A stretch of 40,617 bases of DNA from the NCBI GenBank assembly GCA_947260035.1, contig CAMYOO010000004.1, positions 1-40,617 on the forward strand. The letters run 5' to 3'. Made by a program: the position numbers and the translations under genes. The DNA comes from an uncultured delta proteobacterium. Its GTDB lineage: Bacteria > Myxococcota_A > UBA9160 > JAFDET01. This document shows positions 17,496 to 37,637 of the stretch, piece by piece (the stretch's first letter is position 1; the number at the start of each line of letters is the position of its first letter). The notes beneath the pieces are model-generated. The model did not search any database. It was not told where the DNA came from and worked only from the letters and a program-made list of their open reading frames with translations.

Positions 17496-18857
17496 ATGAA
17501 CATCGTGATCGTGGGCGGCGGCTTGGTGGGCTCGACCCTGGCCCAGAAGCTGTCCCAGGACGGCCACGACGTCACGCTGGTCGAGAGGGATGCGCACCTG
17601 GTGCGCGATCTCTCCGAGACCCTGGACGCCCAGATCGTCGGGGGCAACGGCACCACGGCCGCCACCCTGCGCAAGGCCGGGATCGAGAAGGCCGCGCTGC
17701 TGGTCGCGACCACCGACTCCGACGAGGCCAACATCGTCGTGGGGCTCGTGGCCGGCTCGATCTTCGAGGTTCCGCGCATCGTGGTGCGCCTGCGCGAGCA
17801 GGATCACGTGGAGGGCTTCGCCGAGGTCAGCAAGGACCACGCCGTGGACTACGCCTTCGTGAACCCCATCGAAGCGGCCGTGGATCGCATCGTGGAGCTG
17901 CTCGAGGTGCCGGGCGCCCTGGACGTGGCCTCGTTCCTGGACGGCCGGCTGCTGGTGGCGGGCTTCCGTATCGGCGAGGGCTCGGACTTCGCCGGTCTGC
18001 TGGTGAGCCACGTGCAGCTGCTGTTCGCCGGAACGCCCACGCTCGTCGCCGCAATCCACCGCGGTAGCGATTGGATCATTCCCTCCGGCGCCGACGAGAT
18101 TCGTGCCGGCGACCTGGTCTACTTTGCGATCGCACGCGAGGACCTGGAGGGCGTGCTCGCGCTGGTGGGGACGTTGCGGGAGGAGCGTCGCCACATCATG
18201 GTGGCGGGCGCCGATCGCATCGGCCTGGCCCTGGCTCGGCGCTTGGAGAACCGCGACGCCAAGGTCATCGTCATCGAGGCCGATTTCGACGTTGCGCGCC
18301 GCGCCGCCGACCAGCTCGAGCACCCGGTGGTGGTGCACGGCGCCGTCACCGACGGAGCGCTGCTCGAAGAAGAAGAGATCGAGCGCGTCGCGACGTTCGT
18401 GTCGCTGACGCCGAACCACGAGACGAACCTGGTGGCCGGCCTGCTGGCGAAGCGGCTGGGCGCGGGCCGTGCCTTCGCCCTGGTGGACCACCCGGCGTTG
18501 GCCGACCTGATCGGCGAGGTGGGAATCGACGCGGTCATCAGCCCGCGCCTGCTGGCCATCGGCCTGATCCTGCGCCACATCCACGGCGGCTCGGTGCACT
18601 CGGTGGCGCCGCTCCTGGAGGACCGCGTGGAGCTGTTGGAGGCCGAGGCCGTGGAGGGCAGCCGTCTGGTCGCCGCCCCCTTGGCCGAGGTGGGCCTGCC
18701 CCGGGGTGTCCTGGTGGTGGCCGTGCGCCGCGGCGCCCAGATCCTGGTCCCGCGCGGCGACGACCGGGTCGAGGTCGGCGACCGCGTGCTGCTGATCACC
18801 GCCGTCGAGAACGCGGCCAAGCTCACCGAGTTCATCGAAGGCAGCGGCCAGACCTGA
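17496..18857 (+). CDS. trkA: Trk potassium uptake regulatory subunit TrkA
   Basis: 453 residues, the standard length for a two-repeat TrkA. The order is RCK_N (GGGLVGS nucleotide loop at 7–13), RCK_C, a second RCK_N (GADRIGLALA near 230), then RCK_C. TrkA is a cytoplasmic peripheral protein that binds NAD(H) and gates the TrkH/TrkG K+ channel. No trkH is visible here, so its partner must be encoded elsewhere. A Gly-rich ribosome-site-like stretch (CGGGGGGC) precedes the ATG. The 3' end abuts a cluster of palindromic repeats. The second nucleotide loop deviates from GxGxxG, which is usual for the second half of TrkA. Confidence 0.93.
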   Translation: MNIVIVGGGLVGSTLAQKLSQDGHDVTLVERDAHLVRDLSETLDAQIVGGNGTTAATLRKAGIEKAALLVATTDSDEANIVVGLVAGSIFEVPRIVVRLREQDHVEGFAEVSKDHAVDYAFVNPIEAAVDRIVELLEVPGALDVASFLDGRLLVAGFRIGEGSDFAGLLVSHVQLLFAGTPTLVAAIHRGSDWIIPSGADEIRAGDLVYFAIAREDLEGVLALVGTLREERRHIMVAGADRIGLALARRLENRDAKVIVIEADFDVARRAADQLEHPVVVHGAVTDGALLEEEEIERVATFVSLTPNHETNLVAGLLAKRLGAGRAFALVDHPALADLIGEVGIDAVISPRLLAIGLILRHIHGGSVHSVAPLLEDRVELLEAEAVEGSRLVAAPLAEVGLPRGVLVVAVRRGAQILVPRGDDRVEVGDRVLLITAVENAAKLTEFIEGSGQT

Positions 18858-18876
18858 AACCGAGCCCCTGCACTCA

Positions 18877-19010
18877 GGGACGTTCCTGCATAACTGCACC
18901 GAGTACCACTCCTGCACGGAGGGACGTTCCTGCGTAACTGCAGCGAGTGCCACTCCTGAGGGCAGGACTGGCACCGAATGCAGTTACGCAGGAACGTCCC
19001 TCCGTGCAGG
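18877..19010 (-). repeat. Palindromic intergenic repeat, three copies (locus 1)
   Basis: Copy A begins at 18877 and copy B at 18921, in direct orientation with a 44-base period. Each starts GGGACGTTCCTGC followed by a TAACTGCA block and a CCACTCCTG block. Copy C is inverted and ends with CGTCCC at 18995–19000. B and C form a huge hairpin: 18911–18942 and 18979–19010 are perfect 32-base reverse complements, and pairing continues inward with two mismatches to a 4-base loop. The cluster fills the gap between the convergent trkA and LLM genes. The same unit recurs near 25786. It resembles REP/BIME-type elements; no transposase lies in the window. Confidence 0.85.
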
Positions 19011-19016
19011 TGGGGG

Positions 19017-19970
19017 CTAGCCGGCCAGGCTGGGGAGCTGCGGGAGGATCTCCGCGCCGACGCGTTCGGCGAACGCCTGGGGATCCGATAGCGGCGAGAG
19101 CACGAAGTGGCGCACGCCGGCTGCGTGGAAGCCGCGCATCTGCTCCAGGCAGTCCTCGGGGCGCCCCAGCAGCACGTAGCGCGGAGCCGCCTCGCGGAAC
19201 TGCTCCACGGGCCGTGCGTAGACCCCCGCCAGGACGGCCGCCGCTCGCTCGAGCGCCTTTTCGTAGACGTCGTCGACGGCGGTGAAAAGGAAGGCTGCGG
19301 TGTCGAAGCGCTGGAGCGTACGTCCAGCCGCTTCGGCGTGTCCGGCAATCGTCTCCAGGTTCGCGCGGTACGTGTCCGTCGCGCACATGTGGGAGATGTA
19401 GCCGTCGCCGAGCCGCCCGGCGCGCCGGAACGCCGGCGGGCGGCGCCCTCCGATCCAGACCGGCGGGCCGCCGGCCTGCACCGGCTTGGGGTTCATGGAC
19501 ACCGGGCCGAACGAGAAGTGGCGACCGCGGTGCTCCACCGTGTCTTCGCTCCAGAGCCGGCGCAGGATCTCGATCCCCTCGTCGGTGCGCGAGCCGCGCT
19601 CGGCCCGGGGCACGCCGCAGGCCTCGAACTCCGGCGGGAACTCGCCGCCCACGCCGACTCCAAAGAGGACGCGTCCGCCCGAGAGCACGTCCAGGGTGGC
19701 GACGCTCTTGGCGGCCACCGCCGGCCGGCGCAGGGGAAGCAGGTAGACGCTGGTTCCGAGCGACACGCGTTCGGTGGCGCCGGCCAGGAAAGAGAGCAGC
19801 GAGAGCGACTCCAGGATCGGCACGTGGAACGCGATGTGATCGCCGGCCCAGAGCGAGTCGAAGCCCAGCTCCTCGCAGCGCCGGGCCAGGGTCCGGGCCG
19901 GCTCTCGCGCCGCCCCTGCCACGACCATCCCGCAGCGGACCCTGTCCGAGACGGGCAGGGGAGCGGGCAT
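19017..19970 (-). CDS. LLM-class (luciferase-like) flavin/F420-dependent oxidoreductase
   Basis: 317 residues forming the bacterial-luciferase-like TIM barrel. Typical segments are RCEELGFDSLWAGDHIAF, SLGTSVYLLPLRRPAVAAKSVATLDVLSGGR, FGVGVGGEFPPEFEACGV and the C-terminal GVRHFVLSPL. Proteins of this type use F420 or FMN to oxidise or reduce small organic substrates. Cofactor and substrate cannot be separated by sequence alone. The gene starts 7 bases after the SH3-domain gene's stop, so the two are probably co-transcribed, although no functional link is obvious. Its 3' end lies 6 bases from the repeat cluster. Confidence 0.85.
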   Translation of the reverse strand: MPAPLPVSDRVRCGMVVAGAAREPARTLARRCEELGFDSLWAGDHIAFHVPILESLSLLSFLAGATERVSLGTSVYLLPLRRPAVAAKSVATLDVLSGGRVLFGVGVGGEFPPEFEACGVPRAERGSRTDEGIEILRRLWSEDTVEHRGRHFSFGPVSMNPKPVQAGGPPVWIGGRRPPAFRRAGRLGDGYISHMCATDTYRANLETIAGHAEAAGRTLQRFDTAAFLFTAVDDVYEKALERAAAVLAGVYARPVEQFREAAPRYVLLGRPEDCLEQMRGFHAAGVRHFVLSPLSDPQAFAERVGAEILPQLPSLAG

Positions 19971-25167: not shown

Positions 25168-25803
25168 ATGTCAACGCAGCCTCCGATCCCCGCCGCCGCC
25201 CCCGCTCCGCCTCCCGGAGCCCCTCCTGCAGACCGCCTGGTGCGAATGGCCGGGGTCTTCTACGGGCTGCTGCTGGCGGCAGCCTGGATCTGGCGGACGG
25301 GCTGGGCCGGGGAGCCGCTCCTCTACGCCGATGCGCAGGCCGCGGCTCGCGGGGTGGCCTGGCCGGCCGATCTGGGCTGGGGACTGGCGGCCGGCGCCGT
25401 CGTGATCGGGGTCTCCTGGCTGACGACCTCCTGCAGCCGCTGGGGCGAGCGCCTGGCGCGGGCCCTGGCCGAATTGGTGGGCCGACCGAGTGTGGGCCAG
25501 GTCGCGCTCCTGGCCCTGGCCAGCGGGGTAGGGGAAGAGGCGTTCTTTCGCGGAGCGCTCCAGCCCCGGGTGGGTCTGGTGGGCGCCAGCCTGTTCTTCG
25601 CGTTGGCCCACTTCGTGCCGCGCCGCGAGATGCTGCCCTGGAGCGGATTCAGCCTGGTGGCGGGCCTGGCGCTCGGCGCGCTGTTCGAGTGGACCGGCAA
25701 CCTCGTCGCCCCCATCGCCGCCCACGCCCTGATCAACGGCGTAAACCTCACCCTCCTCACCCGCCAATACGGCGACGGTGCAAAGGGGGACGTTCCTGCA
25801 TAA
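25168..25803 (+). CDS. CPBP intramembrane metalloprotease (CAAX/Abi family)
   Basis: 211 residues from the ATG at 25168, the first start beyond the greA leader. About five to six hydrophobic helices are seen. The three CPBP motifs are in order: EEAFFRG (paired glutamates and Arg), a FALAHF segment (FxxxH), and HALINGVN (HxxxN). These supply the glutamate and histidine catalytic or metal-binding residues of the glutamic-type intramembrane protease fold. Substrates of such bacterial proteins are mostly unknown. The last five residues (GDVPA) and the stop codon are encoded by the intergenic palindromic repeat, so the C-terminus appears to have been rewritten by that element. Confidence 0.85.
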   Translation: MSTQPPIPAAAPAPPPGAPPADRLVRMAGVFYGLLLAAAWIWRTGWAGEPLLYADAQAAARGVAWPADLGWGLAAGAVVIGVSWLTTSCSRWGERLARALAELVGRPSVGQVALLALASGVGEEAFFRGALQPRVGLVGASLFFALAHFVPRREMLPWSGFSLVAGLALGALFEWTGNLVAPIAAHALINGVNLTLLTRQYGDGAKGDVPA

Positions 25804-25892
25804 CTGCACGCAGTGCCGCTCCTCCAGGAGTGGTACCCGGTGCAGTTACGCAGGAACGTCCCCGAACGCAGGAGTGGTACTGGGTGCAGTTA
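25786..25892 (-). repeat. Palindromic intergenic repeat, two and a half copies (locus 2)
   Basis: This is the same element as at 18877. A direct copy starts at 25786 (GGGGACGTTCCTGC) and an inverted copy ends at 25863, forming arms of 23 bases with one mismatch (25786–25808 with 25841–25863) and further pairing inward to a CC loop. A third, truncated inverted copy spans about 25868–25892 and stops at TGCAGTTA. The cluster fills the gap between the convergent CPBP and ridA genes. The left copy supplies the stop of the CPBP gene, and the truncated copy supplies the TAA of ridA. Confidence 0.85.
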
Positions 25893-37565: not shown

Positions 37566-37637
37566 GGCAACTAAAGGGACAGTCCCTTTAGTTGCCGCAT
37601 TCGCTGAGGAACTGGCGGGATTGTCCCTTGGGTTCCG
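37566..37637. repeat. Second palindromic repeat type, one perfect and one degenerate copy (locus 3)
   Basis: 37566–37580 and 37582–37596 are perfect 15-base reverse complements (GGCAACTAAAGGGAC) around a single A. A degenerate direct copy of the right half follows at 37617–37637, matching 15 of 21 positions (GGGATTGTCCCTT). The block fills the space between the convergent methyltransferase and mglA genes and ends one base before the mglA stop. It shares a GGGAC core with the element at 18877 and 25786 but is otherwise different. No T-run follows, so it is not a typical terminator. Confidence 0.8.

Follow-up and report, generated by a model that had tools for sequence, protein, structure and literature searches.

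An intergenic 100-base hairpin of an uncultured delta proteobacterium as a very likely non-autonomous dimer of terminal inverted repeats belonging to a resident RAYT element

The window analyzed here is a stretch of 40,617 nucleotides from the genome assembly of an uncultured delta proteobacterium (GCA_947260035.1, contig CAMYOO010000004.1, positions 1 to 40,617). A large hairpin occupies the gap between two converging genes in this window, an upstream gene (17496-18857, plus strand, 453 aa), which we take from reading its sequence to encode a TrkA-like protein, and a downstream gene (19017-19970, minus strand, 317 aa), presumably encoding an F420/LLM-type oxidoreductase-like protein. The gap contains three copies of a 44-bp unit. 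Unit 1 (18869-18912, plus strand) has the structure TGCA-N4-GGGACGTTCC-TGCATAAC-TGCA-N4-GTACCACTCC and lies 11 nt from the stop codon of the upstream gene; unit 2 (18913-18956, plus strand), exactly 44 bp further on, forms the left arm of the hairpin, and the inverted unit 3 (18965-19008, minus strand) forms its right arm, 8 nt from the stop codon of the downstream gene. The hairpin spans 100 bases (18911-19010); direct reading of the sequence gives outer arms that are perfect over 32 bases (CCTGCACGGAGGGACGTTCCTGCGTAACTGCA at 18911-18942 and its exact reverse complement at 18979-19010), and pairing continues inward as far as a 4-base loop. An inverted-repeat call at this position (I2) comprises arms of 53 nt with 87% complementarity and a spacer of 4 nt. 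Folding yielded -107.4 kcal/mol (z -11.3) for the RNA of positions 18858-19016 and -62.2 kcal/mol (z -12.2) for the DNA of positions 18867-19010, values that were equalled by none of 200 shuffled sequences in either case. A first-pass annotation of this DNA had described a near-perfect 100-base hairpin with perfect 32-base arms and extended inner pairing, accompanied by an extra direct copy 44 bases upstream, and both sequence and folds bear this out; the direct copy lies at 18877, at an offset of exactly 44 bp to position 18921.

A second element of the same family is located at 25779-25888 of the window, with units at 25787-25808 (plus strand) and 25841-25862 (minus strand) and an outer 18-nt module. 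An Rfam scan of the window recovered two tRNAs only and no match at the hairpin. A promoter and terminator scan of positions 18400-19500 called no terminator at the window element, and the single terminator-like site it reported is situated within the downstream gene.

The unit is dispersed in the genome of this organism (hereafter G000; an assembly of 4.58 Mb in 480 contigs, 92.9% complete), where 89 units in 35 clusters were found with up to three mismatches, and a reversed-pattern control gave no match at the same threshold; the unit, which the first-pass annotation had proposed to count across the genome and its relatives, is thus not confined to two loci. In the congener G002 (3.7 Mb) we found 102 units in 43 clusters, and in the congener G001 the unit was not found. 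Among 40 relatives searched it was present in two, both of the same genus. When no more than one mismatch was allowed, three of 90 genomes of the class gave a match: G000, G002 and a third with just one hit, which we take as a chance match. A literature search with the repeat strings gave, among the matches listed, no paper whose title concerned bacterial repeats.

The 191 units of the two genomes define the 44-bp consensus TGCA-N4-GGGACGTTCC-TGCRTAAC-TGCA-N4-GT(A/G)CCACTCC, which is punctuated by TGCA and includes two variable segments of 4 bases each. The second module of the unit is variable (GTACCACTCC, GTGCCACTCC, GGGTCAGTCC and others), and many elements carry an additional outer 18-bp module. 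Elements consist of one or two units on the plus strand, a short centre and one or two inverted units: both strands are represented in 65 of 78 clusters and one strand only in the other 13, with a minus unit preceding a plus unit in none. Neighbouring units on the same strand are spaced by 44 bp in all 48 cases, and the spacing from plus to minus in the 65 two-strand clusters is 53-60 in 50, 76-77 in ten, 93 and 98 in one each, and 950-958 in three. The consensus contains no GTAG (GT[AG]G) tag, and a single unit forms no significant palindrome (the consensus was matched by 30 of 200 shuffles, its complement by 22 of 200). On the other strand the conserved linker, TTATGCAGG, fits six of the eight fixed letters of the DnaA-box consensus TT[AT]TNCACA as quoted in PMC6006769; this resemblance was set aside because a match of such quality somewhere in a 44-mer is expected about one time in three by a rough hand estimate.

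Among 62 short dimers of the family, the window hairpin ranks fourth in energy per base, and the median of the longest perfect run over the short dimers is 23 pairs, so that it sits toward the more perfect end of its family. High fidelity is not a trait of the family as a whole. When the two arms of an element were compared in 65 pairs (three long elements included), the outer N4 and the core were neutral relative to shuffled pairings, but the inner N4 segments were less alike than shuffled ones (0.412 versus 0.496, z -2.9) and so were the inner B modules (0.718 versus 0.760, z -2.8). This is the opposite of what concerted arms, made more alike through hairpin selection, would show, and that idea was rejected. 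Perfection of the stem is therefore not preserved across the family, in which heterotypic inner arms are favoured instead, as likewise reported for some REP dimers in PMC3733652.

The first-pass annotation had also suggested looking for the gene of a REP-associated tyrosine transposase (RAYT), and such a gene exists, flanked by the very units that build the hairpin. A profile search of G000 with PF01797 gave six Y1 matches at an E-value of 1 or better, the best of which, on contig C47, is a gene of 269 aa (RAYT-1) bracketed by a direct pair of units of the window's repeat family (family 1) on one side and an inverted pair on the other (++ / --). The arrangement in G002 is identical, with shared neighbours and a protein 88% identical, and the gene is single copy in both genomes at a shared chromosomal position. 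No relative of RAYT-1 was found in G001 at an E-value of 1e-10; the same search gave two more distant relatives in G003. In both G001 and G003 the two neighbour genes of RAYT-1 are parted by other sequence without a RAYT match. Thus, across three congeners the repeat is present together with the RAYT (G000, G002) and absent without it (G001), a pattern that may represent one evolutionary event. Another cluster, on contig C86 (L079), was considered as a second copy of the RAYT and rejected; the stretch of about 1 kb between its ++ and - units (653-1692) holds neither a RAYT frame nor a Y1 match. This stretch is absent in G001 (L253), and one of its frames (1381-1635) ends in a tail that we presume to be PEP-CTERM-like; the repeats at this site may have brought a cargo gene along or captured one.

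RAYT-1 matches the Pfam profile Y1_Tnp above cut-off (4.8e-10), scores 64 and 71 bits against NCBIfam REP_Tyr_transpos (under its cut-off of 80), and has a tail that matches Pfam Bac_DnaA_C below cut-off (E 0.0046). The residues H60, H62, Y119, N123 and P124 are invariant in 35 aligned sequences (of 90 frames listed), and a pattern search over the 90 frames found HuH in 89 and Y---NP in 88. With a dN of 0.067 and a dS of 0.571 (NG86), or 0.059 and 0.765, respectively (YN00), RAYT-1 is under purifying selection. Since phmmer found no match in the PDB at an E-value of 0.001, folds were compared instead. The AlphaFold2 model (pLDDT 90, pTM 0.67) consists of two domains: residues 1-182 resemble the E. 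coli RAYT on its REP hairpin (4er8; Z 16.0, 154 aligned residues, 2.8 A), and residues 186-269 resemble domain IV of DnaA on a DnaA box (1j1v; Z 12.1, 84 aligned residues, 1.9 A). The predicted RAYT-1 thus combines an HuH domain like that of the E. coli RAYT with a domain that resembles domain IV of DnaA.

Terminal inverted repeats (TIRs) are found around many other RAYT genes. We examined 99 RAYT loci, set 23 of them aside because flanks were absent or short, frames were short or one place was represented more than once, and compared the remaining 76 with 222 control placements elsewhere in the same loci. A TIR score of at least 16 was reached by 53 of the 76 loci and two of the 222 controls, and GGGACG lay within the best inverted segment of the upstream and downstream flanks in 55 of 76 and none of 222, respectively; 19 of the 76 loci were without a clear TIR (score under 14). 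These loci are not independent, because the genes are related and include those of close relatives such as G000 and G002. The other Y1 genes of G000 (on C345, C144, C58 and C307) showed no TIR in the flanks tested, with best scores of 8-9.

A second RAYT of G000 (RAYT-2, on C66) is flanked by a different palindrome, similar to AAAGGGACAGTCCCTTTAG, which is likewise dispersed in the genome: this family 2 matched 65 times in forward and 66 times in reverse orientation in G000, 23 and 22 times, respectively, in G002 and not at all in G001 or G003, counts in which one place may appear twice because the motif is near-palindromic. The window itself contains a copy of AAAGGGACAGTCCCTTTAG at 37573-37591. 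The RAYT homolog of G019 has its own dispersed TIR family with 74 matches (one match with two mismatches in G003, none in G006), and that of G006 has another with 53 matches (none in G019 or G003). Hence, each of the four RAYTs whose copies were counted, which were chosen for their clear TIRs ahead of the other RAYTs of these genomes, has a repeat family of its own. In G019, the two sides of the RAYT carry short dimers (+-) rather than single or doubled units (C30, 6011-6068 and 7071-7128).

The size and fidelity of the hairpin had been read as a sign of recent or maintained activity. The comparison of the two species does not bear out 'recent': for 25 of the 35 sites of G000 there is an orthologous cluster in G002, and the flanks are on average 90.8% identical, so that most sites predate the divergence of the two species. 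Ten of the 25 orthologous sites do not have the same number of units, among them L098, which lies at a contig end. Where the architecture is equal, 36 units were compared; their constant core shows 98.3% identity between orthologs, which equals its identity to random other copies. The outer 4-base segment is 72% identical between orthologs versus 47% for random copies, and the inner 4-base segment 64% versus 51%; the identity of both variable segments between orthologs thus falls below that of the flanks. Whole units are therefore gained and lost in steps of 44 bp, and turnover of the variable modules is rapid. The same core identity could also result from gene conversion, or from selection if the repeat had a role in the cell.

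At five sites a relative is without the element, as judged by visual inspection of the junctions: L056, L075, L073, L079 and the second element of the window. Ten sites of G000 without an ortholog in G002 were queried, and four gave a relative that spans the junction. The site of L056 (C154) holds a family-2 dimer and no family-1 element in G002 (L246, C116); in G000 a family-2 monomer adjoins the family-1 element there, so that this is a shared landing site. The site of L075 is element-free in both G001 and G002, and in G002 (L243, C207, about 1655-1696) it holds a third GGGGAC palindrome, AAGAAAGGGGACGGTCCCTTTTCTT; this intergenic site is used by different repeat families. L073 and L079 are element-free in G001, with other sequence at the L073 site in G003, and G003 has about 45 bp of other sequence at the place that matches the second window element. 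For the window hairpin no junction-spanning match was found in G001 or G002, and G003 is without the upstream gene at that place. A target-site duplication could not be defined from the five element-free sites, because their flanks are too diverged.

The proposed association with gene ends is supported by the positions of the elements. In G000, 30 of the 35 clusters could be placed (three at contig edges and two long ones left out): 14 lie between convergent genes, 13 between genes of the same direction and three between divergent genes, compared to 29, 151 and 34, respectively, of 214 gene pairs that are free of the repeat (Fisher p 7.0e-5). For G002, with 34 of 43 clusters placed (eight at contig edges and one long left out), the respective numbers are 17, 15 and two versus 27, 142 and 35 of 204 pairs (p 4.7e-6). 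Gene calls were made with a home-made, unvalidated gene finder, and the counts of the two genomes are not independent because sites are shared. Elements thus favour gene 3' ends between convergent genes. The distance from element to gene 3' end is 2-25 nt in 66 of 90 cases measured and negative in 11 of the 90, where the gene ends within the element and the element supplies the stop codon, as does the second window element (TAA, 25801-25803). In the genes at 2686-4560 of L066 and 25246-25803 of the window, the last codons and the stop codon lie inside the repeat; insertion therefore rewrote the C-terminus of the gene. Convergent gaps in the background are short (478 bp in total over 27 pairs in G002 and 2098 bp over 29 pairs in G000), so that abutment alone is no proof of function.

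The closest counterpart is the TIRtron, for which Di Nocera 2013 (PMC3733652) describes TIRYT genes flanked by TIRs, some of which are dispersed as dimers or clusters in some genomes. As in that description, a Y1 HuH transposase lies here within terminal inverted repeats rather than GTAG REPs, and the TIRs recur as dimers and clusters (35 and 43 in the two genomes). In contrast to the TIRtrons described there, the arms consist of one or two 44-bp units of 18-bp TGCA-punctuated modules, and the tag is GGGACG(T) rather than GGGGWSAS, a motif presented in that account for some TIRs and not as a requirement; the RAYT-1 TIR N-GGGACGTT departs from it at positions 7-8, and the minor module GGGTCAG fits its last seven letters. 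The protein resembles TnpA-Y1 subclass 2.1 as characterized in PMC6006769 in its Y---NP and HuH motifs and, according to the predicted model, in its C-terminal DnaA domain IV-like fold. In that 2018 survey, subclass 2.1 contains 291 of 292 sequences of Bertels RAYT group 1 and 20 of 26 TIRYTs, with DnaA_C/HTH tails. No REP-like sequences were found beside genes of this subclass in the survey, which leaves the link to TIRs open, whereas each of our four counted RAYTs is flanked by its own dispersed family. CGTC-tagged REPs, as presented in PMC3733652, share the GACG/CGTC letters of the tag and the position of dimers near gene 3' ends; they are described there with stems of 8-9 bp and a CCA-like tail and as having no dedicated transposase, whereas the family-1 unit flanks a transposase and its consensus has no such stem. 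An identity with CGTC REPs was ruled out on stem and tail.

Taken together, the hairpin is very likely a non-autonomous TIR dimer of a TIRtron, the resident RAYT element. A conserved, single-copy transposase very probably copies it as a passive mobile element, which makes it an ordinary member of a family of mobile repeats. The best reading of this family is a TIRtron (TIRYT; TnpA-Y1 subclass 2.1-like) repeat rather than a canonical GTAG REP. That the cluster is REP-like, as initially suggested, stands insofar as the family is dispersed and associated with a RAYT; it does not stand for a canonical REP. Such an identity (a GTAG-tagged REP/REPIN of a group 2 or 3 RAYT) is very improbable: dispersed inverted dimers, a RAYT and the location at gene 3' ends described for REPs would all fit, but it is refuted by the tag and by the single unit, and in addition RAYT-1 has a predicted DnaA-like C-terminal domain as reported for subclass 2.1. 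Compared with REPIN/BIME systems as portrayed in PMC3116915 and PMC8049555, the single-copy, vertically kept RAYT and the extragenic inverted dimers agree, but GTAG is missing, a single unit forms no significant hairpin, and arms can be double units. Somewhat less improbable, though still a weak candidate, is the reading that an active insertion sequence, represented in full length by the RAYT, gave rise to the hairpin as an ordinary MITE. The gene-carrying copy and the short copies do have terminal inverted repeats in common, and C86 holds another insert of about 1 kb between ++ and - units, but there is one full-length RAYT-1 per genome at a locus shared by two species, and the ends are doubled 44-bp arrays.

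It had further been suggested that such a stem could stop convergent transcripts or stall replication. A possible, if rather unlikely, alternative is that the hairpin is a bidirectional terminator or mRNA 3'-end stem maintained by the host, for which the link to the RAYT concerns origin only. The very stable stems, the short distances to gene 3' ends, the convergent enrichment and a core conserved at 98.3% compared to about 91% for the flanks would be consistent with such a role. However, a T tract (five Ts within 15 nt) is found beyond only one of 143 element ends, so that the elements are not canonical intrinsic terminators; in addition, 13 of 30 and 15 of 34 elements are flanked by genes of the same direction and three and two by divergent genes, the two arms resemble each other less in their inner segments than shuffled arms do, and the short gaps of background convergent pairs mean that abutment needs no function. 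Least probable of all is a site of replication arrest or chromosome organization. Large perfect inverted repeats are able to stall replication forks, and RAYT-1 carries a predicted DnaA-like domain, but the congener G001 has no copies.

Under the preferred reading of a TIR dimer mobilized by RAYT-1, a mechanism can be proposed. The HuH/Y1 single-strand nuclease and the DnaA domain IV-like domain of RAYT-1 would together recognize the GGGACG-tagged arms; the HuH domain would perhaps do so on the folded single strand and the DnaA-like domain on duplex DNA. RAYT-1 would copy or move dimers in trans at a low rate, probably while an arm is single-stranded at replication; low-rate copying in trans via single-stranded DNA is what PMC8266576 and PMC8049555 describe for E. 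coli and other REPtrons. Insertions might survive chiefly in small gaps by gene 3' ends, above all between convergent genes, where surviving elements would abut or even supply stop codons, and the transcribed stem may serve neighbouring genes as a 3'-end structure. A broader proposal, for which we see about equal reason for belief and doubt, is that RAYTs with a DnaA domain IV each keep their own GGGACG-tagged dispersed dimers. The whole subclass would then be REPIN-like, its tag would be its own and recognition would have two parts (HuH for folded single strand, DnaA-like for duplex arms), and the window family would have doubled its arms into 44-bp TGCA-punctuated arrays whose variable modules outpace the flanks.

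What is new here are the doubled modular arms of 44 bp, the GGGACG tag, the heterotypic inner arms and the clear genome-wide populations of dimers. The four RAYT families provide clean, testable pairings of a RAYT with its repeat, two in one genome and two more in other genera, with GGGACG as a candidate tag and the arms as substrates for binding and cleavage tests. In the predicted architecture of RAYT-1, a nuclease of the REP type would be combined with the DNA-binding portion of the replication initiator, and the pairing of such genes with dispersed TIRs bears on the link between subclass 2.1 and TIRs that the 2018 survey, in its account of the subclass (PMC6006769), left open.
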